Shown one piece after another: positions 2,760 through 24,236 of a DNA stretch of 64,000 nt. The notes under the pieces were generated by a model. That model did not search any database. It was not told the origin of the DNA and worked only from the letters and a program-made list of their open reading frames with translations. Position 1 is the stretch's first letter. Every line of letters starts with the position of its first letter. Both the position numbers and the translations under genes were made by a program. The stretch comes from Cyanobium sp. T1B-Tous (GTDB taxonomy: Bacteria > Cyanobacteriota > Cyanobacteriia > PCC-6307 > Cyanobiaceae): contig NZ_JAGQBE010000005.1 in NCBI RefSeq assembly GCF_024345475.1, positions 1-64,000 on the forward strand. The letters run 5' to 3'.

Positions 2760-4667
2760 ATGACCGTCTTTCTGCTTCAGGCGGCCTGGCTGATTCCTGC
2801 CTACCCCCTGCTGGCGGCCGTGGCCTCGCTGGCCTGGTCCCCGGGGTTGATCTCCCGCACCGGCCCTCGGCCCTGCGGTTACCTGAATCTCTTGATGGTG
2901 GCTGTGGCCTTCGGCCACAGCCTGGTGGCGCTTACCGCTCTGCACACCAACGCCCGTGCCGGAGCCGAGGCCCTCTATCGGCCGATCAGCTTCGGCTGGA
3001 CCTGGCTTGACACCGCCGGCCTGCGGGTGGGTTTTGACGGGTTGGTGACCGAGCCGGCCCTGATCGCCATGGCGGTGATCACGGGCCTGCACCTGCTGGT
3101 GCAGATCTATGCGATCGGCTACCTGGAAATGGACTGGGGCTGGCCCCGCTTCTTCGGCTCCCTGAGCTTCTTCGAGGCTGGCCTCTGCGCCCTGGTACTC
3201 ACCGATTCGGTGTTCTTCAGCTACGTGATCCTTGAGTTACTCACCCTGGGCACCTACCTGATTGTGGGCACCTGGTACAACCAGCCCCTGGTGGTGAAGG
3301 GGGCCCGCGATGCCTTTCTCACTAAGCGGATTGGCGACCTGATCCTCCTGGCCGGGGTGATCGCCCTGTTGCCGATGACCGGCACCTGGAATTTCCATGG
3401 TCTGCAGGGTTGGGCCGCCGACCTCACCAACAACGGCACGCCCTTGCCCATGGGCTTCCAGCTGATCCTGCTGGCCCTGATTGCTGGCCCCATGGGCAAG
3501 TGCGCCCAGATCCCCCTGCATCTCTGGCTCGATGAGGCGATGGAGAGCCCCCTGCCTTCCACCGTGCTGCGCAATTCGGTGGTGGTGGTGGGCGGCGCTT
3601 GGGTGCTGCTGCGGTTGGAGCCCCTGCTGGAGCTCAGTCCCTTTGTGCAGGCGGTGCTCGTGGTGGTGGGTGGCTCCACCGCCGTGGTGGCCTCGCTGAT
3701 CGCCCTGGCCCAGGTGGATGTGAAGCGGGCCCTTTCCTTTCTGGTGAGCAGCTGGCTGGGGCTGCTGATCGTGGCCGTGGGCCTGGGCGGCACCGCCGTG
3801 GCCGACCACCTGCTGCTGGTGTATCCGCTGCCGATGGCCCTGCTGCTGATGGCGATCGGCACGATCGTGATCAGCAATGTGACCCAGGACCTCACCCAAT
3901 TGGGGGGGCTCTGGAGCAAGCGGCCCCTGATCGGCATCGCCTTCCTCGCCGGCGCGGCCGGCCTGATGGGCTTGCCGCCATTCGCCAGCTTTGCGGCCCT
4001 GCGCGAATTGCTGGCCCTCACGGCGGCGAGTGGCCATCCCCTGCTGCTGGGGGGCGTGGTGCTGGTCACCAACGCCCTGATCAGCGCCGGCCTGATCCGG
4101 GTGTTCGGCCAGATCTGGGGAGGCCGACCCACCCCCTTCACCACCCGTTCTCCGGAGGTGCTCTGGCTGATGGTGCTGCCCACCATGGTGCTGGCGGGCC
4201 TGGTGCTGCATCTCCCCATGCTCCTGGTGGCCAATGGGGTCTATTCCCTCACCCCCCTTGCCGGTTGGGGACCTCTGGCCTGGCCCCTGATCGCCTCCAC
4301 CCTGGTGGGCGGAAGCCTCTCGGCCGCCTTTTACCTGCGTCCCCACGGCCTGGCCCAGCTGCCGGCCTTCCTCGGAGGCCTGCAGGATTGGCTCGCCCAC
4401 GACATGCAGACCGAGCGCTTCTACCACCGCACCGTGGTGGCCCTGGTGCTGGCCCTGGCCCGCTTCGGAGCCTGGAGTGACAGTCGCCTGGTGGATGGCT
4501 TCAGCGGCGGCACCGGTGCCGTGGCCCTGGAGGGAGCCCGGCGCCTCAGCCTCACGACCTCCGGTCGGTCCCAGGCCTACGCCCTCACCCTGGTGCTCGG
4601 GGTGTTGCTGATGGCGGCCTGGCTGATTGCCGTGGATCTACCGCCCGTGTCCATCGCTCTGCCCTGA
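2760..4667 (+). CDS. ndhF3: NDH-1 subunit NdhF3 (NdhF3/F4 type, CO2 uptake)
   Basis: A 635-aa NuoL/NdhF-like antiporter subunit of the specialised NDH-1MS complex that drives light-dependent CO2 hydration. It has the conserved proton-channel elements, including EL in VILELLTLGTYL and the KCAQIPLHLWLDEAMESP loop. Where ordinary NuoL/NdhF1 proteins have an ALIHAATM segment, this one has STVLRNSVVVVGG, which is characteristic of the CO2-uptake NdhF3/NdhF4 branch. It heads a same-strand cluster with ndhD and a CO2-hydration protein. F3 is preferred over F4 because a FAS1-domain CupS-like gene closes the cluster; sequence alone leaves NdhF4 possible. Confidence 0.85.
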   Translation: MTVFLLQAAWLIPAYPLLAAVASLAWSPGLISRTGPRPCGYLNLLMVAVAFGHSLVALTALHTNARAGAEALYRPISFGWTWLDTAGLRVGFDGLVTEPALIAMAVITGLHLLVQIYAIGYLEMDWGWPRFFGSLSFFEAGLCALVLTDSVFFSYVILELLTLGTYLIVGTWYNQPLVVKGARDAFLTKRIGDLILLAGVIALLPMTGTWNFHGLQGWAADLTNNGTPLPMGFQLILLALIAGPMGKCAQIPLHLWLDEAMESPLPSTVLRNSVVVVGGAWVLLRLEPLLELSPFVQAVLVVVGGSTAVVASLIALAQVDVKRALSFLVSSWLGLLIVAVGLGGTAVADHLLLVYPLPMALLLMAIGTIVISNVTQDLTQLGGLWSKRPLIGIAFLAGAAGLMGLPPFASFAALRELLALTAASGHPLLLGGVVLVTNALISAGLIRVFGQIWGGRPTPFTTRSPEVLWLMVLPTMVLAGLVLHLPMLLVANGVYSLTPLAGWGPLAWPLIASTLVGGSLSAAFYLRPHGLAQLPAFLGGLQDWLAHDMQTERFYHRTVVALVLALARFGAWSDSRLVDGFSGGTGAVALEGARRLSLTTSGRSQAYALTLVLGVLLMAAWLIAVDLPPVSIALP

Positions 4668-4677
4668 GGCCGCCGCC

Positions 4678-6198
4678 ATGACCCTGCTGCTGTTGCTCCT
4701 GCTTCCCCTGCTGGTGGGCCTGCTGCTCCCCCTGCTGCCGCCTGGCCGCCCCGGGCTGGTGCGCGGGCTGGCCGCCGCCGCCGCCCTGGCCCAGCTGGTG
4801 GTGGGCCTGCTGGCCTGGCGCCAGCCGCCCGCTCCTTTGACCCTCGAATGGCTGCCCCGCCTGGGTTTGGGCCTGGATCTGGGCCTCGATGGGCTGTCGC
4901 TGCCGCTGGTGCTGCTCACGGGCCTGATCACCGCCATGGCGGTGCTGGCCTCCCCCGCAGACCAGGGCCGCCCTCGCCTCTATTTCGCCCTGATGCTGGC
5001 CACCAACCTGGGGGTGGTGGGGGCGTTCCTGGCCCGCAACGCCCTGCTGTTCGTGCTCGCCTTTGAGCTGGTGCTGATCCCCACCACCCTGCTGGTGGCG
5101 ATCTGGGGTGGCGAGCGCCGGGCCGGGGCCGCCGTGCGCTTCCTGCTCTATGGGGCGGTGTCTGGACTGAGCCTGCTGGGTGGTGTGCTGGCCTTCGGCT
5201 GGTTTGGCCAGGGCGCTGCTGGCGCCGATACCGCCGTGAGCTTCAGCTTCGAGGCCCTGGCTGCCACGCCCCTGCCCGCCTCGGCCCAGCGCTGGGTGCT
5301 GGCCCTGCTGGTGCTCGGTTTCGGCATCAAGCTGCCGGTGGTGCCCCTGCATGGCTGGCAGCCGATCAGCTACGCCGAAGCGCCGCCGCCGGTGGTGATG
5401 CTGCTGGGGGGTGTGGTGTCGAAGCTGGGGGCCTACGGCCTGCTGCGCTTCGGGGTGGGCCTGCTGCCCGATGCCTGGAGTGCCTTTTCGCCCTGGATTG
5501 CCGCCGCCGGTGCCGTGAGCGCGGTGTACGGCGCCCTCAATGCCGTGGCCGCCACCGACATCCGCCGCCTGATGGCCTACAGCTCCCTGGGCCACATGGG
5601 CCTGCTGGTGCTGGCCCTGGCGGCCGCCACACCGATGAGCCTGCAGGGCGCCATGGCCCAGGTGCTGGCCCACGGCCTGATCGTGGCCCTGCTGTTCGAC
5701 TGCGTGGGGCTGATCCAGCGCAAGACCGGCACCACCGTGATCGCCGAGCTCTCTGGCTTGATGAATCCGATCCGGGGCCTGCCCTTCACCATGGGCCTGA
5801 TGCTGCTCGCCCTGATGGCCGCCGCCGGCATTCCCGGCCTGGCTGGCTTCCCGGCCGAACTGCTGGTGTTCGAGGGCAGCTGGACCGTGTTCCCCCGGGC
5901 CACCCTGATCTGCCTGGTGGCCTCGGGCTTCACCGCCGTCTACGCGGTGCGGCTGTTCAACCGGGTGGGCTTCGGCCGGCTCGATAACAGCCGCGCCGAC
6001 TGGCAGAGCACCCGACTGGCCGAACGGCTGCCGGCCGTGGTGCTCACCACCCTGGTGGTGCTCGCCGGCATCTGGCCAGTGGGGCTCACCGCCTGGAGCG
6101 AGGCCAGCACGGCCGCTATCGCCCTGCGACACAGCGACCCGGTGGTGCAAACCCTGGCCCTGGCGCCCCGTTCCCCGTCGTCGACCCTGCCCGCATGA
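4678..6198 (+). CDS. ndhD3: NDH-1 subunit NdhD3 (NdhD3/D4 type, CO2 uptake)
   Basis: A 506-aa NuoM/NdhD-family subunit, almost wholly hydrophobic, that pairs with NdhF3 in the membrane arm of the CO2-uptake NDH-1 complex. Family marks include the glutamate in LAFELVLIPTTLL (about residues 122-134), a lysine in GFGIKLPVVPLHGWQP, the AEAPPPVVMLLGGVVSKLGAYG segment (given here only as a landmark) and MAYSSLGHMG. The ATG at 4678 was chosen because it starts the first hydrophobic helix; an upstream in-frame start would add a non-membrane leader and overlap ndhF3. Its stop overlaps the cupA start by four bases (ATGA), so the two are translationally coupled. Confidence 0.87.
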   Translation: MTLLLLLLLPLLVGLLLPLLPPGRPGLVRGLAAAAALAQLVVGLLAWRQPPAPLTLEWLPRLGLGLDLGLDGLSLPLVLLTGLITAMAVLASPADQGRPRLYFALMLATNLGVVGAFLARNALLFVLAFELVLIPTTLLVAIWGGERRAGAAVRFLLYGAVSGLSLLGGVLAFGWFGQGAAGADTAVSFSFEALAATPLPASAQRWVLALLVLGFGIKLPVVPLHGWQPISYAEAPPPVVMLLGGVVSKLGAYGLLRFGVGLLPDAWSAFSPWIAAAGAVSAVYGALNAVAATDIRRLMAYSSLGHMGLLVLALAAATPMSLQGAMAQVLAHGLIVALLFDCVGLIQRKTGTTVIAELSGLMNPIRGLPFTMGLMLLALMAAAGIPGLAGFPAELLVFEGSWTVFPRATLICLVASGFTAVYAVRLFNRVGFGRLDNSRADWQSTRLAERLPAVVLTTLVVLAGIWPVGLTAWSEASTAAIALRHSDPVVQTLALAPRSPSSTLPA

Positions 6199-7499
6199 CC
6201 TCATCCACTGCTGCAGCGGGCACCAAAACGCCCCTGATCCCCCCTTCCACCCACCGCTACGCCGAGGTGATCCATCGGCTCGAGGCGGGGGGCTCGATGC
6301 TGCCCGATACGCCGGAGAACCTCCAGCAGATCATCGGTATCTACAAGGCCTACGCCGTGCCGATGGATTTCTATTGGCGTGACCTGCTCTACATCGCTGA
6401 GCAGGTGTTTCTCAATCCGTTGCCGGCCTTCAAATACTTCATCTCCCAGGAGTATCTGGACCGGCCCAACAGCTACGCCGGCGACCATTCCCAGCTGCGC
6501 ATCTGGCGTGGCACCGAGAAGGTCCACCCGGAGCTGCTGGAGTTCATGGAGCGGGGTGAAACCCGCCGCATGCCCAAGCTCCTGCATCACCTCTGGCATG
6601 ACCGGGTGAACATGGAGTTCGCCGAGGCCTGCATGCAGGCCATGTATTGGCACCAGGGCATGGGTGGTCGCTTCAACGACTACCTCGACAGCGATGCCTA
6701 CAGGGCCAACGCCGACCGCGCCATCAAGGCCTACTTCCGCGGCAATCCGCTGATGCTGGGCCTCTACAAGTTGTTCCCGGACATGGTCCTGGAGCAGGTG
6801 AAGCAGCTCAGTTATTACAGCAACCTGGGCCTGTTCTGGGAGGTGATGGCGCCGGTGTTCTTCGAGATGAGCGACCTCTACGACGAGGGCAAGCTCACTT
6901 CGGTGCCCCAGGCGATGGACTTCCTGGTGAACGGCATCTTCGCGGTGGCGGGCCGGCCGATTTATCACCACGTGTTCATCCGCGGTGAATGCTTCGAGAT
7001 CATCCCCAAGAGCGAGGGTTTCACCTGGCTCTACGAGGCAGCCCTGCCCTATGTGGAGGCGGTGTTCTACCGCACCTCCCCCTTCCGTGGCACCAAGAGC
7101 TACAACGCCCAGGCCGGACAGGTGCCAGCCAACCAGGCGGATTTCCACTACGGCATCCTCTACGCCGATGTGTTTCCGGTGGGATCCGCCGGCATTCCGC
7201 CCACCCTGCTGATGCAGGACATGCTCCATTTCCTGCCGCCCTATCTGCAGGAGATGTACAAGACCCACAGGCGCGGCGAGGAGGACCAACTGATTCAGCT
7301 GGGCATCACCTTCCAGCGCTCGATGTACAACGTGACCTCGGCGGTGATCCAGGCCCTGCGCTGCGCCCTGCTCTATCCCCTCGATGACACCGATCCGGAG
7401 CATCTGGAGGCCAACCGCCGCTTCTTCGAGGCCCAGATGGACCGCTTCCTACGGCCGGAGGCCCGCCTGCCCGACATCCAGACCCAGGACTACCGCTAA
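6195..7499 (+). CDS. cupA: CO2 hydration protein CupA/ChpY (or CupB/ChpX)
   Basis: A 434-aa soluble protein of the cyanobacterial CO2-hydration family, which caps NdhF3/NdhD3 and converts CO2 to bicarbonate at the NDH-1 proton channel. It contains the conserved histidine- and tryptophan-rich stretch [19 protein letters not shown] (about residues 124-142), followed by MQAMYWHQG, and the [17 protein letters not shown] block near residues 250-270. Its length suits CupA better than the shorter CupB, and a FAS1 gene follows as in the cupA-cupS order of Synechocystis. The start overlaps the ndhD stop (ATGA) and its own stop overlaps the next start (TAATG). Confidence 0.85.
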
Positions 7500-7900: not shown

Positions 7901-7921
7901 TTCACCTTCGCCACCACCCGC

Positions 7922-9100: not shown

Positions 9101-9104
9101 GGGC

Positions 9105-10379: not shown

Positions 10380-10383
10380 CGGC

Positions 10384-11355: not shown

Positions 11356-11454
11356 CGGACTGTCGTCTGCAGTGGGGTCGGCAAACGGTACTGACTGTTT
11401 TTTTGAGTTGGGTTATTTCTGGGCTACTGATCAACCAGGAGCTGCAATCTCTGC

Positions 11455-11471
11455 GATCAGAAACGCTGATC
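11455..11471. repeat. Inverted repeat GATCAG-N5-CTGATC upstream of the sigma gene
   Basis: A perfect 6-base inverted repeat with a 5-base spacer lies about 100 bases upstream of the sigma-factor start, in the 163-base gap after psiE. It could be an operator or simply chance; no T-run follows, so it is not a terminator. Confidence 0.3.
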
Positions 11472-11518
11472 AATGCCTCAAGATGCGTTGGGTATTTCAC
11501 GGTTCTGTTGACCCTGGA

Positions 11519-11959
11519 TCAGGCTGATTGCTGGTCATGTCTGGCCCGTTTGACGAGCCAATAGGCCGCGGCAAGGCCTACCACAATCACGCCAAAACCG
11601 GCCATGAGTTGGGGTTTGCTTTCGGTGCCTGGTGGAAGCACAATCACTTTCCTGGCCACGGCAGTCATGGCCGTGAGCAGCACCAACTCGATCTGCACCA
11701 CCTGGTCGCGCAGATAGGCGGTCACGTTTTGGAGCACTTCCAACGCGATGAAAATCAGCAGCAACCGGTCGAGCAGTTTGATCAGGCCTCCTTCAAACCA
11801 GTCGGCCTGAAACCTTGCAATGTTGATGCTGGATTCAACGACAAGCTCGATGACGGCAAAGCCAATCACGATGGCCAGGAGTAGGCCTAGAAGTTTGGCG
11901 AGCTGCCGTTCATAGCTGTGGATGATCGAGAGGAAGCGCTGGTCGCTGGACAGACTCAT
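11519..11959 (-). CDS. PsiE-like (phosphate-starvation-inducible E family) membrane protein
   Basis: A 146-aa protein with four predicted membrane helices: LLGLLLAIVIGFAVIELVV, LLDRLLLIFIALEVLQNV, VLLTAMTAVARKVIVLPP and the last around AGFGVIVVGLAAAYWLV. This layout and the LLIFIALEVLQNVTAYL segment match the PsiE family (PF06146). Its biochemical role is unknown; the E. coli member responds to phosphate starvation and cAMP-CRP. It lies just beyond the bicA terminator, so it should have its own promoter in the short gap. No Pho-box was recognised there. Confidence 0.75.
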   Translation of the reverse strand: MSLSSDQRFLSIIHSYERQLAKLLGLLLAIVIGFAVIELVVESSINIARFQADWFEGGLIKLLDRLLLIFIALEVLQNVTAYLRDQVVQIELVLLTAMTAVARKVIVLPPGTESKPQLMAGFGVIVVGLAAAYWLVKRARHDQQSA

Positions 11960-11980
11960 GGGAGATCACACAAGACAATG

Positions 11981-12007
11981 AAAAAGGGCCCGGGGTGGCC
12001 GAGCCCT
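11981..12007 (-). terminator. Rho-independent terminator of bicA
   Basis: Read on the minus strand, a nine-pair stem (AGGGCTCGG with CCGGGCCCT, one G-T pair) closes a five-base loop and is followed by a run of five T. It lies 22 bases past the bicA stop and 21 bases before the psiE ATG. Confidence 0.85.
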
Positions 12008-12029
12008 CTGCTGGGTTGGGTTGGTCGGT

Positions 12030-13721
12030 TCAGGCCAGGCTTCCCACGGCCTGCTGCAGCGCCTCGCGGCGGCTCAGGCGGGTGCGTTCAGCCGGAAGTT
12101 TGTTGAACAGGCCAAGGGTCTCGAGCCGGCGCTGGGTGGTGCCGCTGGCTCCCACCACAAACACCTCGCGCCCTTTCTCAATGGCTTCCTCCACGGCGTT
12201 CTCCACGGCCAGCGCAGCAGTCACACCCAGGTGCGATACCTCGGTGAGATCGAAGACCACGGCATTCACGTCGCCGATGGCGTTGTGTTCCCGTCCAATG
12301 GCCTTGGCCACGCCAAAAATCATGGCGCCGTTGAGCTGGAAGAGCAGCACCTTGCCCTTCCCTTGATCGAGCAGGGCCTTCTCGTCGTCGGGCAGCATCA
12401 GGTCACCGTCGCCGGTGCTGATCGACTTGACGCTCTTGCTCTGCAGGGAGCTCATCTTGTCGATGGTGAGGATGTTGGCGATGAACACGCCGATGCCCAC
12501 GGCCGCGATGAGATCGACCAGCACGGTGAGGGCGATCACCAGGTACATGATCAGAGCTCCGCTGATCGAGATGCGGTGGGCTCGCTTAAGGAAGCCCCAG
12601 TCGACGATGTCGACACCCACCTTGAGGGCGATACCGGCCAGCACGGCCTGGGGGATCTGGGCAGCGACGCCAGTGAAGGCCAGGATCACCACCATCAGGA
12701 TCACGGCCCGGCTGATGCCTGAGAGGGCACTGCGGCCGCCGGCCTGGATGTTCACAACCGTGCCCATGGTGGCGCCGGCACCGGCGATGCCACCGAACAG
12801 GCCAGAAGCGATGTTGCCTAAACCCTGGCCGATCAGTTCCTTGTTGGAATCGTGCTCGGTGCGGGTGATGCTGTCGGCCACCACGGCTGTCAGTAGGGCA
12901 TCAATGCAGCCGAGCATGCCCAGCACGGCGGCATCAATCAGCATTTTGCTCGCCTGCCCCAGCTCGAAATAGGGCATGCGCAGCTGGGGGAAGCCAGAGG
13001 CGATTTCGCCGATGCGGCGAATGTCCTCGCCACCAGCACCACCGCTGAGCAGGGTGAGAGAGAGCACCGTGCCGGCGATCAGGGCAATCAGCTGGGGTGG
13101 GGCAATTTTCTTGATCGCCGCCGGGGTGAACCAGAGGATGGCCAGGGTGATCACCGCCAAAACCACTTCCGGCTGGCGGGCGTTCTGAATCAGCTGTGGC
13201 AGGGCGCTGAGGGTGCCCATCACGCCGCCCTTGGGGATGGCCTGGCCGAGGAAGGGGCCCAGCTGCAGGATGATCAAGATGAGCCCGATGCCGCTCATGA
13301 ACCCTGAGATCACCGTGTAGGGCATCTGGGTGACGTAACGCCCCAGCTTCAGGAAGCCGAAGACGATCTGGAACACGCCGGCGAGCATCACCACGGTGAA
13401 GGCCATGGCCAGGCCGTTTTCCGGATCAGCAGCGGTCAAGCTGGCGATCACGGCGGTCATCACCACCGTCATCGGCCCGGTGGGCTCGGAAATCAAGGAA
13501 GGGGTGCCGCCGAACAGGGCGGCAAACAGGCCCACCAGCACGGCCCCCCAGAGGCCGGCAGCTGCACCTGCACCGGAGGCCACACCAAAGGCAAGGGCCA
13601 TCGGCAGGGCGATCACAGCTGCGGTCACACCGCCGAAGAGATCGCCTTTGATGTTGTTGGTGCTGATGTGATTCAGCAGCCGCAGACCCGGGCGCCCGGG
13701 GGGCGCCGATGCGGTTGTCAT
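12030..13721 (-). CDS. bicA: BicA sodium-dependent bicarbonate transporter (SulP family)
   Basis: A 563-aa SulP transporter almost collinear with BicA of Synechococcus PCC 7002. The N-terminal block GDLFGGVTAAVIALPMALAF, the TLISEPTGPMT-like SLISEPTGPMTVVM loop, LGMLGCIDALLTAVVADS, TEHDSNKELIGQGLGN and GIGVFIANILTIDKMSS are all present. A cytoplasmic STAS domain occupies about residues 440-550. BicA is a high-flux, low-affinity Na+/HCO3- symporter of the plasma membrane. The ATG at 13721 gives the same length as characterised BicA. It follows a second SulP gene on the same strand after 91 bases and ends in a strong hairpin terminator. Confidence 0.93.
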   Translation of the reverse strand: MTTASAPPGRPGLRLLNHISTNNIKGDLFGGVTAAVIALPMALAFGVASGAGAAAGLWGAVLVGLFAALFGGTPSLISEPTGPMTVVMTAVIASLTAADPENGLAMAFTVVMLAGVFQIVFGFLKLGRYVTQMPYTVISGFMSGIGLILIILQLGPFLGQAIPKGGVMGTLSALPQLIQNARQPEVVLAVITLAILWFTPAAIKKIAPPQLIALIAGTVLSLTLLSGGAGGEDIRRIGEIASGFPQLRMPYFELGQASKMLIDAAVLGMLGCIDALLTAVVADSITRTEHDSNKELIGQGLGNIASGLFGGIAGAGATMGTVVNIQAGGRSALSGISRAVILMVVILAFTGVAAQIPQAVLAGIALKVGVDIVDWGFLKRAHRISISGALIMYLVIALTVLVDLIAAVGIGVFIANILTIDKMSSLQSKSVKSISTGDGDLMLPDDEKALLDQGKGKVLLFQLNGAMIFGVAKAIGREHNAIGDVNAVVFDLTEVSHLGVTAALAVENAVEEAIEKGREVFVVGASGTTQRRLETLGLFNKLPAERTRLSRREALQQAVGSLA

Positions 13722-13812
13722 CGCTACAGATGATGGTTGGCGCGGAACACTAGGCAGGATCCCGGGGCGTTGGGTCTGGCTCCGGCAACTCCCCAAAAGC
13801 TGGCCGCGTTGA

Positions 13813-15363
13813 TCATCCCGCTGGCACAGGGGGCCCGTCGCCACCGCGTCCGCCGGCTTCTTTTGCCACGCCAATGCGGGCGAAGAGATTGGTGCTGGCG
13901 GGGTTGAGATTCAGGACCTCCACGCTGCTGCCGCCGAGCTTGAGGCGGCGGATCACCTGATCCAGGGCCGTCACACCGCTTTGGTCCCAGATGTGGGCGC
14001 CGGCCATGTCGATCGTGATTTGTTCGGGGTGGGGCTGCTCGTGCAGCTCAAACCCTTGGCGGAAATAAATGCTGCTCACAAAAAACAGCTGGCCCTCCAC
14101 CCTGTAGAGCCGGTGGCTGGGGCTGATCAGCTCGCTGCTCACTTCAATCACCTGGGCCACCTTGCGGCTGAACAGAATCGCCGCCAGGGCTACCCCCGAG
14201 ACCAGGCCCACCGCCAGGTTGTGGCTGAGCACGGTGACCACCACCGTGAGCAGCATCACGGCCGTGTCGCTCTTGGGGATGCGGCGGATGCCGCGGATGG
14301 AGCTCCAGTTGGCGGTGTTGATGGCGATCATTCCCATCACGCCCACCAGGGTGGCCATGGGGATCTGGTTCACCCAGCGGCCGGCAAGCAGGATCATCGC
14401 CAGCAAGGCCACCCCGGAGCTGAGGGTAGAAAGGCGGGTGCGTCCTCCATACCCCACGTTCATCACCGACTGGCCTACGAGGGCACAGCCAGCCATCCCC
14501 CCGAATAGCGAGCTGACGATGTTGCCGATGCCCTGGCCGCGGGCTTCGGCGTTCTTGCAGCTGGAGCTGTCGGTGAGGTCGTCGAGGATGTCCTGGGTGA
14601 GAAAGGTTTCCATCAGCCCCACCAGCGAGATCGCCAGGGCCGTGGGCAGGATCAGGCCCAGGGTGTTGAGGTTGAACGACACCTGGGGCAGGGCGAACTG
14701 GGGCAGGCCGCTCGGAAGGGTGCCCAGGCTGGCCACGGTGGGCACATCCAGCCCCAGGCGGATCGAGAGGCCGGTGGAGATCAGGATTGCCACCAGCGCC
14801 GAGGGCACTGCCGTGGTCAGCCGCGGCATCACGTAGATGATCAGCAGGGTGAGGGCCATCAGGCCCCACACCGCCGGCAGCTGGGAGGACGTGACAGCCA
14901 CCTTCTCGGGCTGGAACCAATCAAGGCCGAGCTGGGGCAACTGGGCCAGCACGATCAGGATGGCCAGGGCGTTGACGAACCCGGCCATCACCGGCTGCGG
15001 CACAAAGCGCATCTGCTGGGCCAGTCGCAGGTAGCCCCAGGCGATCTGAAGCAAGCCCGTGAGGATCCCCGCCGCCAGCAGATACTCCAGGCCCCGACCC
15101 TCGCCCAGGGCATTGCCCTGCTGCACCAAGCCCGTCATCAGCAGGGCGGTGGAGCCGGTGGCGGAGGTGATCATCGCGGTGCGGCCGCCCACGATCGCCA
15201 GCGTCACCGAGAGCAGGAAGGCCCCGAACAGGCCCACGCGGGGATCCACGCCCGCGATGCCAGAGAAGGCGATCGCCTCCGGGATCATCGCGAAGGCCAC
15301 GACCAGTCCCGAGAGGAGGTCGCGATGGGGACGGCCCCACCACTCCATGGGGGAGAAAGGCAT
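13813..15363 (-). CDS. SulP family anion transporter (second SulP gene, substrate unknown)
   Basis: A 516-aa SulP protein distinct from its neighbour BicA. The membrane part starts with HRDLLSGLVVAFAMIPEAIA and AGVDPRVGLFGAF, and includes AMITSATGSTALLMTGL and the GMAGCALVGQSVMNVGYGG loop typical of a different SulP branch. A STAS domain forms the C-terminus (ITIDMAGAHIWDQSGVTALD, about residues 440-516). It may carry bicarbonate, sulfate or another oxyanion. Adjacency to bicA suggests, but does not prove, a role in carbon uptake. The ATG at 15363 was chosen because upstream codons add a non-conserved leader overlapping the divergent antiporter gene. Confidence 0.82.
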   Translation of the reverse strand: MPFSPMEWWGRPHRDLLSGLVVAFAMIPEAIAFSGIAGVDPRVGLFGAFLLSVTLAIVGGRTAMITSATGSTALLMTGLVQQGNALGEGRGLEYLLAAGILTGLLQIAWGYLRLAQQMRFVPQPVMAGFVNALAILIVLAQLPQLGLDWFQPEKVAVTSSQLPAVWGLMALTLLIIYVMPRLTTAVPSALVAILISTGLSIRLGLDVPTVASLGTLPSGLPQFALPQVSFNLNTLGLILPTALAISLVGLMETFLTQDILDDLTDSSSCKNAEARGQGIGNIVSSLFGGMAGCALVGQSVMNVGYGGRTRLSTLSSGVALLAMILLAGRWVNQIPMATLVGVMGMIAINTANWSSIRGIRRIPKSDTAVMLLTVVVTVLSHNLAVGLVSGVALAAILFSRKVAQVIEVSSELISPSHRLYRVEGQLFFVSSIYFRQGFELHEQPHPEQITIDMAGAHIWDQSGVTALDQVIRRLKLGGSSVEVLNLNPASTNLFARIGVAKEAGGRGGDGPPVPAG

Positions 15364-15486
15364 GAGTCGGTACAGATCAGTCGGTAAGGGTCCGTCGGGG
15401 CGCCTGCCCCAAGCACGATGCCGTGAGACGACCCATGTCATGCAGGGTTGGTTGGGCCAGGGTGGGAGCAGCGTTTTCACTCTGCC

Positions 15487-16587
15487 GTGCTGTTTCCCCA
15501 GGCGCTGTTGACGTCGCTTGCGGGATTGCTGCTGCTCTTCTGCGGGGGAGAGGCCTTTGTTTCAGGTGCCAGTCAGATGGCTCGCCGGCTTGGCATCCCG
15601 GCGGTGGTGATCGGCCTCACCGTGGTCTCCCTGGGCACCAGTGCCCCGGAATTGGCTGTGGCCCTGATGGGAATCGAGCGGCAAGACACAGCGCTGGTCT
15701 TGGGAAACGTCGTGGGCAGCAACCTCTTCAACCTGCTGGTGGTGTTGGGCTCCTGTGCCCTTGTGGTCCCCTTGCGGGTGAGTCGGCGGTTGGTGCGCCG
15801 GGATCTGCCGGTGCTGTTGATCGCCACCCTGGCGGTATGGGGTATGGCGGCAGCGGGTCGCTTGCTCTGGCCCGCTGGTTTGGCGTTGCTGGTGGGCTTG
15901 ACCATCAACCTGGTTTGGGAGCTGGTGAGTGCCATCGAGCAACGCCAGCTGGAGCCGCGCAGTGACAGCGATTCGGATCCGAAACCCGGTGGAGGCCTTG
16001 GGCCGGCCTTGGCGTTGCAGGGCCTTGGGATTGGGCTGCTGGTGCTGGGCTCAGACCTCTTGCTCAGAGGGGCGCTCAGTGCCGCTCGCCTGTTGGAGGT
16101 GGATCAGGCTGTGATCGGACTGACCCTGGTGGCGGCCGGCACCTCGCTGCCGGAACTGGTGACCTCGTTGGTGGCGGCCTATCGGGGGCGGGCGGATCTG
16201 GCGATTGGCAATGCGGTGGGCAGCAGCCTGTTCAATCTGCTGCTGATCCTGGGCATGGGAATTCTGTTCAGCGGCAGCTCCGGCATCGCGGTGCCAGCCG
16301 TGCTTCTGCAGCGCGATTTGCCCGTGCTGGTGGTGGTGACCCTGATCTGCCTGCCGCTGCTCTGGAGCTACGCCACGATCACGGCAACGGATGGGGCGTT
16401 GCTGTTGCTGATCTATGGGTTCTATCTGGTGGAGCTGGTGGTGCTGGCCAAGCTGCCCACGGCGATCGGGACGTTCCGTTTGGCCATGCTGGTTGCGACT
16501 GGGCCTGTGCTGGCTTTTTTGGGTTGGAGTGTGGTGAGCTGGTGGCGGGTTCGAGGAAGCGGGGATCCCCCACCACCAGCTCTCTGA
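15487..16587 (+). CDS. CaCA-family Ca2+/cation antiporter (YrbG-like)
   Basis: A 366-aa protein with two inverted halves, each bearing an alpha repeat: GLTVVSLGTSAPELAVALMG with VLGNVVGSNLFNLLVV, and GLTLVAAGTSLPELVTSLVA with AIGNAVGSSLFNLLLI. These GTSxPE / GNxxGSxxFN pairs bind Ca2+ and Na+ or H+ in the K+-independent Na+/Ca2+ exchanger family. An acidic, serine-rich linker (RSDSDSDPKP) joins the halves. A GTG at 15487 places the start directly at the first helix, as in relatives; a TTG at 15448 would add 13 residues. Transcribed away from the SulP gene. Confidence 0.88.
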   Translation: MLFPQALLTSLAGLLLLFCGGEAFVSGASQMARRLGIPAVVIGLTVVSLGTSAPELAVALMGIERQDTALVLGNVVGSNLFNLLVVLGSCALVVPLRVSRRLVRRDLPVLLIATLAVWGMAAAGRLLWPAGLALLVGLTINLVWELVSAIEQRQLEPRSDSDSDPKPGGGLGPALALQGLGIGLLVLGSDLLLRGALSAARLLEVDQAVIGLTLVAAGTSLPELVTSLVAAYRGRADLAIGNAVGSSLFNLLLILGMGILFSGSSGIAVPAVLLQRDLPVLVVVTLICLPLLWSYATITATDGALLLLIYGFYLVELVVLAKLPTAIGTFRLAMLVATGPVLAFLGWSVVSWWRVRGSGDPPPPAL

Positions 16588-16677
16588 CCCGTTTGAACGC
16601 CTGCTGGCCAACGGCACTGCCATGCCCCAGCCAGGTGGCCCGGCTGCCTATACACCTGCCACCCGTTCTGAGGCTGC

Positions 16678-18033
16678 ATGCTTCTTCCCGCTCCGGTGTT
16701 CCTGGAGATCAGCCCACACCAACTCGAAGTGGCCGAAACCCTGATTCAGGTGGGCCGTTTTGTGGTGATCTTCTTCGCCGCCCGGGCCATCGCCGAAGTG
16801 ATGGTGCGCCTGCAGCTGCCCACGATCCTGGGAGAGCTGGTGGCCGGTGTGCTGATTGGCGTTTCAGGCCTGCACCTGATCGTGCCTCCTGCCGTGCAGG
16901 CCCAGCTCAGCGCCGGGGTGACGGGGCTGGTGGGTTCCCTGGCCCAGATCAGTCCCGATGCGGTGCAGGAGGTTTACAACGAAACCTTCCCCAGCCTGCA
17001 GTCCGTGTCCCAGCTCGGCCTGTTTGCCCTGCTGTTTCTCACCGGTCTGGAGAGCGAGCTCGATGAGCTGGTGGCCGTGGGGGTGCAGGCGAGCACGGTG
17101 GCGGTGGCTGGTGTGGTGCTGCCCTTTGCCCTGGGCACCGCCGGCCTCTATTTCCTGTTCCATGTCCCGCTGATTCCAGCCGTGTTTGCCGGCGCGGCGA
17201 TGACGGCCACATCGATCGGCATCACCGCCAGCGTGTTTGGCGAGCTCAAGTGGCTCAAGCGCAAGGAGGGCCAGATCGTGATTGGTGCCGCCGTGCTCGA
17301 CGACATCATCGGCATCGTGATCCTGGCCGTGGTGGTGGCCATCGTGGGTGGCGGCGCCTTCAGCCTCGGCCCCGTGCTGAAGCTGTGTTTGGCGGCGGTG
17401 GCCTTTGTGGCCGTGGCCCTGGTGCTGAGCCGCACGGCGGCCCCCGCCTTCGATTGGGTGGTGGACCGGCTCAAGGCCCCCGGGGATGTGGCCGTGGCCA
17501 GTTTTCTGGTGCTCACCGTGAGCTGTTTCGCCGCCCAGGCCATTGGCCTGGAGGCGGCCCTGGGCGCCTTCGCCGCGGGGCTGATCCTCAGTGCTTCGAA
17601 GCACACCCATGACATCGATGCGGCGGTGAAGCCCCTGGTGGCCCTGTTTGCCACCGTGTTTTTCGTGTTGATCGGCACGGGCCTGGATCTCTCCGTGCTC
17701 AACCCGCTCGATCCGGCCAACCGGGAGGGATTGGTGGTGGCCGCTTTCCTGCTGGCGGTGGCGATCGCTGGCAAGGTGGCCGCCGGCTGGAGTTACCTCA
17801 GCCAGGAACCCACCAACCGCCTGGTGGTGGGGCTGGGAATGATGCCGCGCGGCGAGGTGGGTCTGATCTTCCTGGGGCTGGGCAGCCAGGCCGGCATCCT
17901 CACGCCCGCCCTCGAGGCCGCCATCCTGCTGATGGTGATTGGCACCACCTTCCTGGCCCCGATCCTGCTGCGGCTGGTGATTCCGCGCGAACCCGGCGAG
18001 GGCCCAACGCTGGCCTCCGAACAGCCCGCCTGA
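16678..18033 (+). CDS. NhaS3-like Na+/H+ antiporter (CPA2)
   Basis: A 451-aa CPA2 antiporter with about twelve helices. Signatures are LPTILGELVAGVLIG (48-62), LFLTGLESELDEL, the ion-binding aspartate pair in GAAVLDDIIGIVIL (D208-D209), and GLGMMPRGEVGLIFLGLG near the C-terminus. It resembles thylakoid NhaS3 of Synechocystis, which exports Na+ and buffers lumen and cytosol pH. A Na+ exporter beside the Na+-coupled BicA is functionally sensible. A 45-base piece of its 3' region (17821-17865) recurs as a relic at 18916-18960. Confidence 0.88.
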   Translation: MLLPAPVFLEISPHQLEVAETLIQVGRFVVIFFAARAIAEVMVRLQLPTILGELVAGVLIGVSGLHLIVPPAVQAQLSAGVTGLVGSLAQISPDAVQEVYNETFPSLQSVSQLGLFALLFLTGLESELDELVAVGVQASTVAVAGVVLPFALGTAGLYFLFHVPLIPAVFAGAAMTATSIGITASVFGELKWLKRKEGQIVIGAAVLDDIIGIVILAVVVAIVGGGAFSLGPVLKLCLAAVAFVAVALVLSRTAAPAFDWVVDRLKAPGDVAVASFLVLTVSCFAAQAIGLEAALGAFAAGLILSASKHTHDIDAAVKPLVALFATVFFVLIGTGLDLSVLNPLDPANREGLVVAAFLLAVAIAGKVAAGWSYLSQEPTNRLVVGLGMMPRGEVGLIFLGLGSQAGILTPALEAAILLMVIGTTFLAPILLRLVIPREPGEGPTLASEQPA

Positions 18034-19049: not shown

Positions 19050-19508
19050 TTGCTGCCACTCAACAGTCGCCTGATCTTCGGAGTTCTAGGGGCGATGGCT
19101 GCTGCCCCCTTCTTGGCTGCCTGCTCAGCCAACATCCCTGCCGAGGATTCAGGATCATTGATGATTGATTGTGTTTTTGAAACCAACCGTCATGTTCACA
19201 TGCATGTCTCCGAAAAGCGTGGTGCTGTGACCCTCGTCTCAAGATATACCCCAGGTTCCACTAAAAGCCACTCTGAAGACTTGCGTAGGGGACTTGAGAG
19301 CGAAGGTCGCATTATCTCTTCTCGTGATCATCGCCTCAAATCAGAATTGTTCTTGCTCAATGATCATTTTGGCGAAAAGCCAGGCGAGGTGGTTTTTGTT
19401 GAGGTCAGGGATGACGGTATCTCCCGGATGGAAGCCAAGGCGGTGAGTGGAGCCATCCGCCAGATTGATTCCGGCACCTGCTCGTTGCGACACGCTGCCC
19501 AGCGCTGA
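19050..19508 (+). CDS. Putative lipoprotein, unknown function
   Basis: A 152-aa protein with a bacterial lipoprotein signal: a hydrophobic segment LIFGVLGAMAAAPFLAACS ending in the lipobox LAAC (Cys25). The mature part is polar with no recognised domain; it has three further cysteines that could form a disulfide. The start is a TTG preceded by GAGG at a workable distance. It lies at the head of the lower-GC segment and reads towards the c-di-GMP operon, 90 bases upstream of it, but a shared role is not shown. Confidence 0.6.
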   Translation: MLPLNSRLIFGVLGAMAAAPFLAACSANIPAEDSGSLMIDCVFETNRHVHMHVSEKRGAVTLVSRYTPGSTKSHSEDLRRGLESEGRIISSRDHRLKSELFLLNDHFGEKPGEVVFVEVRDDGISRMEAKAVSGAIRQIDSGTCSLRHAAQR

Positions 19509-19598: not shown

Positions 19599-21044
19599 AT
19601 GAAACGTGCCCTCTCCTTTCAGCGTGTTTCCTTGGCCTCGTTGGGCAGAAGGCTCGCAGGGTTAAGGCGTTGGATCTGGCGACCCGATACGGTCCTCTTG
19701 GTTTTGCTGGCCAGTCTGCTCCTTTTGCCTCTAGTCACCGTCGTGGCGACCTCCAGGGCCACGGTGGCCCAAATGAAGCTTCAGGCGGATGAAATTTCCA
19801 CCTTGGCTACTGGAATGCGTGCCTATTACGCCGATAACGTCATCGCTCGGCTCCAGGCTGCTGATGGCAAGGCGGTTTTCTCTGAGAATTATCGAGATGT
19901 TCATGGAGGCATTCCCATACCGGCCACCCTTTCGATTGAGCTGGGTGCGCTGTTTGATAATGCTCACAGTGATGGGCGAATCACCTATGAATTCCTTTCA
20001 GACTATCCCTTTGCCAAGCGTACGACCCAGCCACTTGACCTCTTTGAAAAAGAAGCCATCTCAGCGTTTCGTTCCAACCCAGACCTAACAGTTTTTGATC
20101 GTCTCGATGGTTTTGGCTTGGGGCGATCCACCTACCGTCTTGCCACTCCTGTGCGGATGCGTGCAGCCTGTGTGACCTGCCACAATGCCCACCCTGACTC
20201 ACCAAAGCGGGATTGGAAATTGAATGATGTTCGTGGAATTCAAGAGGTAAGTGTCCGCGGACTTCAAGCTGAAGGATTTGGAAATATCTCTTGGGTTTTT
20301 GGTTACGCGGGTGTTGTTGGTGTCATTTCAGTCGTCACAACGAGTGTTTTCAAAAAGCAGAGCAGCGCCTTTTCAAAGCTCAATCGTCAATTGGTTGATT
20401 CCACCCAGCGTGAAATCGATCTGGCTGGCCGCCTTGCCGATCAGTTGCAAGAGTTGTCCATTTTTGGGAGTGTCGTTGATGACTCAATTGTAGGCATCTC
20501 CATTGCTGACATGAATAAGCCGGATGAACAGCTAATTTATGTGAATAATGCTTTTGTGGAGATTACAGGCTATCCGAAGGAATTGGCCATTGGTTACAAC
20601 TGTCGATTTTTGCAAGGTCCGGATACGGACCCACAGGAGCTGGCGCGCTTACGCCAGTGCATTCGTGACGGTCAGTCTTTCGCCGGTGAGCTGATCAACT
20701 ATCGAATGGATGGCACCCGCTTCCTCAATCGGTTAACGCTCTATCCGATTCGAATCGGAGATAATAAAAAACCTGACTATTACGTTGCCAATCAGGTTAA
20801 TGTCCCATTTGAAAAATTGCCACCCCTGGATCTGCCTCAAGATTTTAATTCTCTAGAGCAACAGCTCATTCAAGCTCGATCTGCCATGCTTGAAATCGAG
20901 CGCTTGATTGGCGGCTTGAATGAGAAGCCATCTGACGACGGCAACCTGTCGCCGGACTTAAATGCGTCTTTGGAATCCTCTCGCCAAGCGCAGAATCAAA
21001 TACAAGCTGCCTTGGATTTTTTCGAAAATCTGTTGAAGCGTTAG
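19599..21044 (+). CDS. Membrane sensor: DUF3365 c-type heme domain plus LOV (PAS) domain
   Basis: A 481-aa sensor without its own output domain. A membrane helix at about 31-51 is followed by a periplasmic DUF3365 (Tll0287-like) domain with the covalent heme motif CVTCH (191-195), then a second helix at about 232-250. On the cytoplasmic side, residues 285-403 form a LOV domain: IGYNCRFLQG has the photoactive Cys335, and the flavin-contacting Asn367, Asn377 and Gln399 are all in place. A polar helical tail ends the protein. It should sense redox state or a haem ligand outside and blue light inside. The stop is 13 bases before a GGDEF gene, so signalling through that cyclase is likely but inferred. 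Confidence 0.85.
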   Translation: MKRALSFQRVSLASLGRRLAGLRRWIWRPDTVLLVLLASLLLLPLVTVVATSRATVAQMKLQADEISTLATGMRAYYADNVIARLQAADGKAVFSENYRDVHGGIPIPATLSIELGALFDNAHSDGRITYEFLSDYPFAKRTTQPLDLFEKEAISAFRSNPDLTVFDRLDGFGLGRSTYRLATPVRMRAACVTCHNAHPDSPKRDWKLNDVRGIQEVSVRGLQAEGFGNISWVFGYAGVVGVISVVTTSVFKKQSSAFSKLNRQLVDSTQREIDLAGRLADQLQELSIFGSVVDDSIVGISIADMNKPDEQLIYVNNAFVEITGYPKELAIGYNCRFLQGPDTDPQELARLRQCIRDGQSFAGELINYRMDGTRFLNRLTLYPIRIGDNKKPDYYVANQVNVPFEKLPPLDLPQDFNSLEQQLIQARSAMLEIERLIGGLNEKPSDDGNLSPDLNASLESSRQAQNQIQAALDFFENLLKR

Positions 21045-21057
21045 GAGTGCCCTATTA

Positions 21058-22263
21058 ATGACTAGCCTTACTAAATCTGTTGTCAAGTCGGCAGGGCGCT
21101 TAAGGGGGCTGGTTCTTGCCTATTGGTTTTTTTCATCATTTATACTGGCTGCTTTTCTGGGCTTAGTTGATATTGTTGAGCGTCAGCGTGAAGTGCTTAA
21201 TGATGCTGAGCACTCTCGCGATTTTGTGGAGGCAACCTTTGCCGCTCCCATAGGGCTGGCGAGCAGGCAGGCCTTGATTTCCGCCTATGCACGCAGTCCC
21301 AGGGTCGACGAGATTGACGGTTTGAATATGCTGCTTATTGTAGATAATGTTGGTAAAATTATCTATTCTTCGCTCCCTGCCGCTCGTGGGTTGGCCATAA
21401 CGGATCCACAGCTTGAGAGAACAGAAACAAATGACCCAGATTTCAAAGCGGTTGTTCGTTGTTTTCAGCAGAACGGCAAAAATTGTGTTGATATTAATTC
21501 TGCCAATCTGTTTCTGAATGCAGGTAGTTTTACGGTTACGCGTCCTTTGGAGCTTCCATCTCGGGACATAGGCCTTGCCTCCGATCGGCTTCTGGTCATG
21601 TTTAACTATGACCCTGGAGTAGTATTTGTTGACTACATCCAGGATTTGGTTGTTATATCAATGTTGAGCTTGTTGTCTTCAGGCCTTCTGTCCCTTGCAC
21701 TTTGGACTGTCCTCTCCAGGCGGCTGCTGCCTCAGCTTTGTGAAGATGTCAACACGGATGGACTTACCCAGCTCTATAATCGTACATTGTTTATGGAAAA
21801 AGCTCAGGACCTGTTAGCCGAAGCGGAAGAAATGAGTCGAGATTTTGTTTTTGCTGTTATTGATGTCGACCACTTTAAGCGTATTAACGATACCTACGGG
21901 CATGCCTCTGGGGACGAAGCCTTGTCCCATGTCGCGGATGTCTTCCGGGCCGTCATTAGACCCGAAGATTTGGTGTGCCGATTTGGGGGCGAGGAGTTTG
22001 CTTTGTTGCTGGGCACGAATCGCGAGAATGGTGGACGGGCGTTGGAGCGGTTGCGGCTTCAGTTGGAGATGACGAGGCTTAAAATAGGTGGGCAAAAGCT
22101 AAAAATTACAGCCAGCATCGGCGCTGCATACACCGGTGAGTGTGGCTACAACATCGATTATCTCTATAACGTTGCTGACAAGGCGCTCTACGTTGCCAAG
22201 CAGGCTGGTCGCAACCGCTTGGAGTGGACCGATGGACGAGTTGCCTCTAGGTTGGCTCGTTAG
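21058..22263 (+). CDS. Membrane-bound diguanylate cyclase (GGDEF)
   Basis: A 401-aa protein with two membrane helices (about 18-38 and 195-218) flanking a periplasmic sensor region of about 155 residues that I cannot assign to a family. It has two cysteines (135 and 143). A C-terminal GGDEF domain (about 231-395) makes c-di-GMP from two GTP. The active-site loop is GGEEF (310-314), and the inhibitory-site RxxD is RPED at 301-304, five residues before it, so product feedback should operate. FAVIDVDHFKRINDTYGHASGDEAL is a standard GGDEF block (landmark, residues 265-289). It sits between the LOV sensor and the EAL gene in one operon and shares their lower GC. Confidence 0.92.
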   Translation: MTSLTKSVVKSAGRLRGLVLAYWFFSSFILAAFLGLVDIVERQREVLNDAEHSRDFVEATFAAPIGLASRQALISAYARSPRVDEIDGLNMLLIVDNVGKIIYSSLPAARGLAITDPQLERTETNDPDFKAVVRCFQQNGKNCVDINSANLFLNAGSFTVTRPLELPSRDIGLASDRLLVMFNYDPGVVFVDYIQDLVVISMLSLLSSGLLSLALWTVLSRRLLPQLCEDVNTDGLTQLYNRTLFMEKAQDLLAEAEEMSRDFVFAVIDVDHFKRINDTYGHASGDEALSHVADVFRAVIRPEDLVCRFGGEEFALLLGTNRENGGRALERLRLQLEMTRLKIGGQKLKITASIGAAYTGECGYNIDYLYNVADKALYVAKQAGRNRLEWTDGRVASRLAR

Positions 22264-22268
22264 GGATC

Positions 22269-24236
22269 ATGCAGTTTCCTGAAATCCCTGAATCGGATCC
22301 AGCTCGCGTAATGGAGCTGCATAGTTTCGATGTTCTCGACACACCTGCAGATCCCCGCTTCGACGACATCAGTGAGTTGGCCCGCCGGGTTGCTGGTACG
22401 GATATTGCCATCATCAGCCTCGTTGATGAAGATCGTCAGTGGTTTAAAAGTTGTGTGGGGGCGCCATTGGGTCAGCAGGATACGCCCCGTACGATTTCGT
22501 TTTGTGGTCACACTATCCTGTGTCGTGATCCGTTTATCGTCCCGGACACGCTTGAGGATGACCGTTTTGCAGATAATCCTTTGGTCATAGGAGAGTTAGG
22601 CGTGCGCTTTTATGCGGGCTTCCCCCTGATCAGTCCGAATGGTTTTGCGCTGGGGAGCCTCTGTGCCATCAGTCGGCAGCCCCATCAGCTCATGGAGCAT
22701 CAGATCGACAGTCTGCAGCGGCTGGCTTCCATCACGGTTCAGCTGCTGGATGGCCTTAGGCAGGCTTCGGTTCTCAGCCGCACGGAGGAAGGCCTGAAGG
22801 CTGAACGCTTGCGGCAACGATTGCCCAGCGATGAACTCAGTTCTTTGCAGCTACTCGCCAGTCGTGATCAATTGCTCCAGATGTTGGAGTTGAATTTATC
22901 GATGAACGGAGGGCTCCCATTTGCGCTGCTCCGCTGTCGTTTTCGTGATTACGACCGTGTCAACGCGACCCTCGGGGGCGTTGTTGCTGAGGAATTCATG
23001 AATGAGGGGGCGCGTCGGGCCTTGGCAGCCGTTCCTAAGGGGTCCTCTATCGCTCGCTTCACAGATGCTGAGCTCTTGGTTTTGCTCCCGTTTGCCGTCC
23101 AGCACTCGGATGTGCAGCGAATCGCTGAACGACTGATTGGTTTCTGCAATCAGATCTACCGCAGTGGTTCCCAAACCCTACCCTTGGGAATGTCGATCGG
23201 AATTGCAATTCACAGCGGTAATTACGCCAGCGTCGAGGCACTTTTGGCGGATACCAGCATGGCTCTGCGTATGGCGTTGCGCTCGTCGAGTAATACCTTT
23301 CGGTTCATTGATGCCGAGGCGCGCTCTGTTGCGCGTGAGAGCTATCGCCTTGAATCTGATCTGAGGGAGGCTCTTAACTCGCGTGCACTGGAAACCTATC
23401 TCCAGCCGATTGTTGATCTTGCCGATGGGAGTCCTATTGGCTTCGAAGCACTAGCCCGTTGGCCCCGTGGGTCGCAAATTGTGTCGCCCGGTACCTTCAT
23501 GCCGATGCTGAATGACAGCGGCATCACCGGCGAGCTGGATCTGCTGATTATCGAGCAGGCTTTGGCTGCAGTGCCACTGTTGGCCCAGCCCATTCCTCAA
23601 CGCCAGATGACGATGAGTGTGAATCTCTCCGGCATTCTGCTGGAAGACGATGAGCTGCGCTCCAGGCTCCTTCAATTGATTGACAGCAATGTCTTGCCTT
23701 CTGGTTGGACCCTGCAGGTGGAGCTGCTCGAGGATGCTTTTCAGGATTCTACGGATGCCTTCGAGCATTTTTTGATGGATCTGGTTGAGCGAGGCGTTGC
23801 TATCGCGATTGATGACTTTGGTACTGGCTATTCCTCTCTGGCGCGTCTGATTTCTTTGCCTCTCCAGGGTGTGAAGGTTGACCGCGCCTTTGTGATGCGT
23901 CTTGAGGAGCAGGACGACTCCCCGCGTACCCTGTTGCGCACGATGTTGACAATGTTGAATGATCTTGGTCTGGCAATCACCGCTGAAGGTGTCGAAACAG
24001 AAGCCCAAAAGCAGTGGCTGGCAGCCAATGGTGTGCGTCGGGCACAGGGCTATTTATTTCACCGCCCAATTCAGGTCAGTGAAGCAATCCATCTGCTCCA
24101 GGAGCTCGATTATCGTCCCTCCGCTATTCCGGTAAGTTCCAGGCGCCTGAGTGCTGTTCGCCGCAGGCAGAGGCGTTTTCTCTGGCCCTGGCCCCTGGGC
24201 GATCGCCGCCGCTCCAAAGGCCGACCAGACCAATGA
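22269..24236 (+). CDS. GAF / degenerate GGDEF / EAL c-di-GMP phosphodiesterase
   Basis: A 655-aa cytoplasmic protein in three parts. An N-terminal GAF domain (about 18-160) contains SFCGHTI. A GGDEF-like domain (about 190-350) has its catalytic loop replaced by FTDAELL, so it should not cyclise and may bind GTP as a regulator. An EAL domain (about 365-620) keeps the residues needed for hydrolysis: GFEALARW, SVNLSG, the glutamate in QVELLED, AIDDFGTGYSSL, the lysine in GVKVDRAF, TAEGVET and AQGYLFHRP. It should degrade c-di-GMP made by the cyclase five bases upstream, making an opposed pair in one operon. Confidence 0.92.
   Translation: MQFPEIPESDPARVMELHSFDVLDTPADPRFDDISELARRVAGTDIAIISLVDEDRQWFKSCVGAPLGQQDTPRTISFCGHTILCRDPFIVPDTLEDDRFADNPLVIGELGVRFYAGFPLISPNGFALGSLCAISRQPHQLMEHQIDSLQRLASITVQLLDGLRQASVLSRTEEGLKAERLRQRLPSDELSSLQLLASRDQLLQMLELNLSMNGGLPFALLRCRFRDYDRVNATLGGVVAEEFMNEGARRALAAVPKGSSIARFTDAELLVLLPFAVQHSDVQRIAERLIGFCNQIYRSGSQTLPLGMSIGIAIHSGNYASVEALLADTSMALRMALRSSSNTFRFIDAEARSVARESYRLESDLREALNSRALETYLQPIVDLADGSPIGFEALARWPRGSQIVSPGTFMPMLNDSGITGELDLLIIEQALAAVPLLAQPIPQRQMTMSVNLSGILLEDDELRSRLLQLIDSNVLPSGWTLQVELLEDAFQDSTDAFEHFLMDLVERGVAIAIDDFGTGYSSLARLISLPLQGVKVDRAFVMRLEEQDDSPRTLLRTMLTMLNDLGLAITAEGVETEAQKQWLAANGVRRAQGYLFHRPIQVSEAIHLLQELDYRPSAIPVSSRRLSAVRRRQRRFLWPWPLGDRRRSKGRPDQ

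Follow-up and report, generated by a model that had tools for sequence, protein, structure and literature searches.

How a photoreceptor-like membrane protein that carries no output domain could govern the turnover of cyclic diguanosine monophosphate (c-di-GMP) is the question posed by a three-gene locus of Cyanobium sp. T1B-Tous, a member of the Cyanobiaceae. The locus lies within the first 64,000 nucleotides of contig NZ_JAGQBE010000005.1 (assembly GCF_024345475.1), and this whole stretch, read on the forward strand, is referred to here as the window. Its three open reading frames follow one another on the plus strand with gaps of 13 and 5 bases (Table 1), just as described in an original prediction made from the sequence alone, and cotranscription appears likely from this spacing. 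The unit, which occurs in some freshwater picocyanobacteria, is predicted to consist of a sensor without an output of its own, an enzyme that makes c-di-GMP and an enzyme that breaks it down. The favoured reading, to which we assign a probability of roughly 0.6, is that a stand-alone sensor with two inputs controls the co-encoded enzymes, the whole forming a conserved control unit. This reading draws on the domains and residues observed in the three proteins, on a conserved gene order and on two co-inherited clades.

The sensor joins two domains of different families. The first matches PF11845 (Tll0287-like, formerly DUF3365) with an E-value of 1.1e-19 and 71.7 bits, against a gathering cut-off of 24.1, and residues 306-396 match PAS_9 in Pfam. 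Among NCBIfam models, that of the YtvA LOV photoreceptor scores best, with 112 bits for residues 291-406, a score under its whole-protein cut-off, as is expected when only one domain is shared. In addition, the nearest solved structures in a PDB search are LOV domains, and a fold search with an AlphaFold2 model of the sensor returned LOV matches only. Membership of these families suggests that the protein binds both flavin and heme c. Besides the Tll0287-like and PAS domains, the Pfam scan revealed neither an output domain, in agreement with the original prediction, nor an HNOB domain. The heme and LOV domains are separated by another hydrophobic stretch and a linker of helical character, and since the order is transmembrane (TM) helix, CxxCH domain, TM helix and LOV domain, the heme domain probably lies outside and the LOV domain inside. 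Attachment of a c-type heme is consistent with the former location. The Pfam, NCBIfam and PDB results thus bear out the domain calls behind the proposed membrane sensor with a periplasmic c-heme domain and a cytoplasmic LOV domain.

The unit proved to be conserved in one cyanobacterial family. When 84,980 species genomes were scanned with an alignment of four sequences, by a method that works through short exact patterns and reaches close relatives only, 8 loci were returned, including those of Cyanobium sp. FGCU52, Cyanobium sp. FACHB-13342, Synechococcus sp. GreenBA-s, Vulcanococcus limneticus and several lake metagenome bins. Among 400 genomes of the window's family, 17 gave a match, and a full heme-LOV sensor was present in 15 of these, the other two (L069 and L070) having the heme domain only. 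In total, the search for DUF3365 and LOV beside GGDEF and EAL genes, which had been put forward as a check, yielded 18 units in 15 genomes, three of them in one genome. Wherever the contig continues, the cyclase gene comes next after the sensor gene (17/17), and the EAL gene then follows in 16 of the 17 readable units, that of L074 being cut by the contig end, so the gene order on which the original prediction staked itself is retained in relatives. Within units, stop and start codons mostly overlap by 4 bases or stand a few bases apart. Carriers account for 6/42, 4/25, 2/13 and 3/16 genomes of the four main genera, a patchy distribution that suggests frequent loss or transfer, and genus-wide searches of the three richest genera found no units beyond these. 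No match spanning heme and LOV domains was found outside the family among 390 genomes sampled across the class, in keeping with the view that the two in one polypeptide are unusual; this rarity applies to the cyanobacterial class, other phyla having been covered only by the short-pattern scan. Two candidates from a CxxCH plus NCRFL pattern (L014 and L095) were rejected as long LOV-PAS kinases with CMxCH in an unrelated region and no DUF3365 pattern, and an apparent cyclase fusion of 1030 residues (L041/L067) turned out to be an overlapping open frame.

The window's genome itself holds a second full-length sensor, on contig 41, which shares 54% identity with the first; the next two genes encode a cyclase (34% identity) and an EAL protein (44%) belonging to that sensor's unit. 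This divergent unit (L032, 4746-9342) adjoins a carotenoid-isomerase-like gene. Because the order recurs in other genomes and occurs twice in this one, the three-gene arrangement is more than chance. Neither this second copy nor the link to CO2-uptake genes discussed below had been part of the original prediction. All three gene trees separate into the same two groups, clade A with 12 units, including the window's, and clade B with 6, including the second copy, and patristic distances among the trees correlate at r values of 0.88-0.96. Of the named carriers, the culturable Cyanobium sp. FACHB-13342 has a clade-B unit and Cyanobium sp. FGCU52 belongs to clade A. One clade-B unit is immediately preceded on its strand by a cryptochrome/photolyase-like gene (L034, 8904-10430). 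Contig 88 of the window's genome (L035, 337-707) carries a decayed sCache_heme fragment that matches sensor residues 187-218 with one stop, and what follows it resembles the beginning of a nucleotide-cyclase domain.

Residues expected of a working sensor are strictly kept. CxxCH, His198 and the LOV residues Asn334, Cys335, Arg336, Asn367, Asn377 and Gln399 are invariant in all 18 sensors, and the residues cited in the original prediction (CVTCH, Cys335, Asn367, Asn377 and Gln399 in this protein) are all correct. Mean pairwise identity is 75% for the heme domain, 65% for LOV, 49% for the linker and 28% for the tail; the heme domain, being the best-kept part, is therefore not a relic.

What the heme senses can be narrowed by comparison with recent work, in which DUF3365 was reclassified as a Cache domain with heme c (Deshpande et al., preprint, February 2026, PMC12889525). 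In that study, a stand-alone sCache_heme member with an axial cysteine is reported to behave as a redox protein, and a membrane member without this cysteine holds nitric oxide (NO) with a slow off-rate and forms no stable O2 complex (PMC12889525). In all 18 sensors the heme domain has no conserved cysteine other than those of CxxCH, so that the axial cysteine of Tll0287 is missing. Its counterpart by eye is Tyr77; the profile match to Tll0287 (E = 0.028) spans the CxxCH half only, and the equivalence of the axial position is therefore a by-eye one. With the heme domain as the sole query, phmmer returned no relative from the PDB. With no axial cysteine and with fusion to a signalling module, the sensor has the sequence features of the NO-sensing sCache_heme subtype. 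NO is thus the leading candidate ligand and redox the next, because the axial cysteine is missing throughout, as in the NO-binding type. The 'redox or ligand' sensing originally proposed can thus be narrowed, with NO in first place and redox in second (PMC12889525). It is possible, at a tentative level, that the domain instead reports the redox state of electron transport, in the periplasm or the thylakoid lumen, with the LOV domain sensing light: c-heme Cache domains of the stand-alone type do serve redox roles (PMC12889525), the unit occurs in a photosynthetic host and has NDH-1 genes linked to it, and the cyclase has an invariant pair of periplasmic cysteines. However, the redox type is stand-alone and has the axial cysteine, which the sensor lacks, and the sensor is fused to a signalling domain. 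In other cyanobacteria, the heme domain is fused directly to GGDEF (L087, L089, L090 and L094) or, in L082, to a domain resembling class III nucleotide cyclases, these domain names being read from sequence, and such fusions support wiring of the heme domain to nucleotide second messengers.

Both enzymes retain the sequence features of activity. Gene 2 matches GGDEF alone in Pfam, with two TM stretches flanking a periplasmic domain, and its family suggests that it is an active cyclase. The active site is GGEEF in 17/17 cyclases, with GGDEF fold matches at Z 22-25. The inhibitory RxxD site, which reads RPED in the window, is kept in 14/17, the exceptions forming the L032-L034 subgroup. The membrane GGEEF cyclase with intact RxxD thus stands as described. 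Its periplasmic domain was modelled at a predicted local distance difference test score (pLDDT) of 70-90; the fold-match list was all GGDEF, with nothing firm on the periplasmic domain. Cys135 and Cys143, which are invariant in 17/17 and stand 7 residues apart in the window's cyclase, a spacing that is larger in some of the others, could form a disulfide and hence a possible redox switch. One unit's cyclase (L072, 4844-6063) is split over two frames by a frameshift or an assembly error. Gene 3 matches GAF (PF01590), weakly GGDEF and strongly EAL (PF00563), and is by its family a probable phosphodiesterase. EALARW, N452, E488, DDFGTGY, K536, AEGVET and Q593 are all present, so that the prediction of a catalytically complete EAL domain beside a dead GGDEF (here FTDAEL) is confirmed, and EALxRW or EVLxRW together with DDFGTGY occurs in every complete same-strand copy. 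In clade B the GAF domain is shortened or gone, indicating that it is dispensable and that the core of degenerate GGDEF and EAL is not. On contig 30 of the window's genome (L135, 1259-4952), a multi-TM GGDEF cyclase is followed by a paralogue of gene 3 with the same GAF, degenerate GGDEF and EAL domains, with no heme-LOV sensor.

In the mechanism that we propose, the sensor would be a membrane protein, probably dimeric. Its heme c Cache domain on the outer side may bind NO or report redox state, and its LOV domain on the inner side would bind flavin and respond to blue light by forming an adduct with the cysteine. The two signals would converge in the helical linker, and because the sensor has no output domain, it would be expected to alter the activity of the cyclase, the phosphodiesterase or both by contact; light together with NO or redox might then set the local level of c-di-GMP, for which PilZ proteins are the probable readers. 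Such control has precedents. When H-NOX of Shewanella woodyi has NO bound, it acts by contact on SwDGC, whose cyclase activity falls and whose phosphodiesterase activity rises (PMC8846402), and in the fused LOV-GGDEF-EAL protein SL2, blue light raises phosphodiesterase activity. By analogy with SwH-NOX/SwDGC and SL2, our guess is that light and NO would favour breakdown, and darkness without NO synthesis. The contact, the direction of its effect and the physiological role are inferences. The window's genome contains 22-25 GGDEF, 11-12 EAL and 5-6 PilZ matches, so c-di-GMP signalling is real in this organism and the unit forms a single local part of an extensive network.

Several observations weigh against this account. 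The C-terminal tail, where a contact for output might be expected, is the least conserved part of the sensor, and co-inherited trees are expected of any operon. The AlphaFold2 model, built from 9 sequences, is weak (pLDDT 56) and usable for secondary structure only. Clade-B LOV domains lack Arg352, a phosphate contact, so their flavin binding could differ. This altered contact is also a point for a sensor of redox or flavin, not light, in the LOV domain, as LOV domains can respond to the redox state of flavin. We regard this as distinctly improbable, since the adduct cysteine is invariant in 18/18 sensors and a redox-only use would not require it. A hint about the tail comes from L068 (4051-8423), the sole unit without the EAL gene and the sole sensor without a tail: here the cyclase is followed by a convergent, unrelated GGDEF-EAL gene in place of the usual third gene. 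This suggests that the tail may serve the phosphodiesterase and the LOV core the cyclase, although a single case proves nothing.

The surroundings of clade-A units offer a lead on function. Genes that recur beside them are ndhF of the CO2-uptake type, ndhD and chpX (TIGR01964, CO2 hydration protein), found within about 13 kb in 8 of the 11 clade-A units with enough flank. They lie upstream of the unit in the window (about 12 kb away, on the same strand), G253 and G320 and directly downstream in G232 and G183. In G099, G267 and G332 these genes stand on both sides: the unit is placed between ndhF and ndhD, all on one strand, and about 36 to 290 bases separate it from its neighbours; as ndhF and ndhD overlap in the window and in L072, the unit interrupts an otherwise tight operon in these three genomes. 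G174 shares the island's other genes (aat, sigma and SulP), and clade-B units have no ndhF-ndhD-chpX nearby. In the window, positions 2760-18033 form an inorganic-carbon and ion island that also holds two CPA2 antiporters, a calcium/sodium antiporter and two SulP-like transporter genes, the last named from sequence and position, not by domain scan. A small gene with a lipoprotein-like signal, which has no family match, stands upstream of the unit here and in 3 other genomes. A 13 kb neighbourhood in a 3 Mb genome would arise by chance in about 1% per genome, with the caveat that the units share a common descent. A functional tie between the unit and CO2 uptake is possible, and a favoured insertion site equally so.

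The same surroundings bear on whether the three genes share more than a promoter. The LOV-heme protein might act on another partner, such as NDH-1 or a lipoprotein, with the enzymes following their own periplasmic and GAF inputs. The sensor lacks an output domain, the enzymes have sensor regions of their own, another membrane cyclase of the genome is paired with a gene 3 paralogue and has no heme-LOV sensor beside it, and the unit is sometimes found within the ndhF-ndhD-chpX run. Yet sensor and cyclase genes are adjacent in 17/17 units of both clades, also where no ndh genes are nearby, and fusions of the heme domain to GGDEF exist, which makes separate pathways rather unlikely. Within the favoured reading of sensor control over the co-encoded enzymes, a further and doubtful step is that a coincidence sensor for blue light and NO or redox, split from its enzymes, tunes NDH-1 CO2 uptake, or surface life matched to carbon supply, through c-di-GMP in freshwater picocyanobacteria. 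A route from c-di-GMP to carbon genes through the c-di-nucleotide receptor ComFB was dropped because PF10719 has no match in the window's genome, the S. elongatus control being positive.

Table 1. Coordinates of the sensor, cyclase and phosphodiesterase genes, their main predicted features and linked genes in the window
Feature	Position	Strand	Basis
Sensor gene, 481 aa: TM1, predicted periplasmic sCache_heme, TM2, helical linker, LOV, variable C-terminal tail	19599..21044	+	
sCache_heme (PF11845 Tll0287-like/DUF3365), residues 56-219	19764..20255	+	Pfam match
CVTCH heme c attachment motif, residues 191-195	20169..20183	+	motif
LOV domain, residues 291-402	20469..20804	+	domain, PDB and fold matches
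Predicted LOV adduct cysteine, Cys335	20601..20603	+	invariant residue
Sensor C-terminal helical tail, residues 403-481	20805..21041	+	
Predicted membrane diguanylate cyclase gene, 401 aa: periplasmic domain between two TM helices, then GGDEF domain	21058..22263	+	
Cyclase periplasmic cysteine pair, Cys135/Cys143	21460..21486	+	invariant 17/17
Cyclase GGDEF catalytic domain (GGEEF active site; RPED inhibitory site)	21751..22218	+	
Predicted phosphodiesterase gene, 655 aa: GAF, degenerate GGDEF, EAL	22269..24236	+	
GAF domain of gene 3, residues 30-154	22356..22730	+	
Degenerate GGDEF domain of gene 3 (FTDAEL instead of GGDEF)	22854..23294	+	
EAL domain of gene 3 with catalytic residues	23358..24068	+	
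Linked ndhF (CO2-uptake NdhF3/F4 family), ndhD and chpX (CO2 hydration protein)	2760..7499	+	
Linked small gene upstream of sensor, 152 aa, predicted lipoprotein-like	19050..19508	+	

Each part of the unit, sCache_heme, LOV, GGDEF and EAL, is already known, and what is new is a predicted two-input sensor split from its enzymes. Like the sCache_heme sensors of PF11845, the protein has a predicted periplasmic Cache domain with a CxxCH motif for heme c, a cytoplasmic signalling domain and no axial cysteine, but its cytoplasmic part is a LOV domain of the photoactive type without an output domain (PMC12889525), and LOV is not mentioned in the text of that study. It resembles SL2 of Synechococcus elongatus, a LOV-GGDEF-EAL protein with blue-light phosphodiesterase activity, in being cyanobacterial and in its predicted route from blue light through LOV to EAL; SL2, however, is one soluble fused chain, whereas here LOV belongs to a separate membrane protein with a heme input, encoded by a separate gene in every unit. 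SwH-NOX/SwDGC and other H-NOX-DGC operons likewise place a separate NO sensor beside c-di-GMP enzymes, and H-NOX controls both activities by contact, but H-NOX belongs to another family, carries heme b in the cytosol and has neither a light input nor a membrane part, and the sensor, having no HNOB domain, is not a member. The dgcO-pdeO (dosCP) operon of E. coli also combines a cyclase and a phosphodiesterase under heme sensing, although each enzyme has its own heme sensor, for O2, with neither light nor a separate sensor involved. In a literature search that did not cover most subscription journals, no paper was found that joins DUF3365 with LOV, or Cyanobium with LOV photoreceptors.

If the favoured reading is true, a single protein would receive light on its inner side and NO or redox on its outer side and would signal to separate c-di-GMP enzymes, a two-input switch that would show a route by which LOV signals pass between proteins. 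For NO-sensing heme Cache domains this would be the first pairing with a photoreceptor, and for optogenetics it would provide a light input to c-di-GMP that is both separable and bound to the membrane. Moreover, the conserved link to CO2-uptake genes is a testable lead on the role of c-di-GMP in picocyanobacteria, where little is known of it, and the CO2-uptake reading, if true, would connect photoreception, gas sensing and the carbon-concentrating machinery directly.

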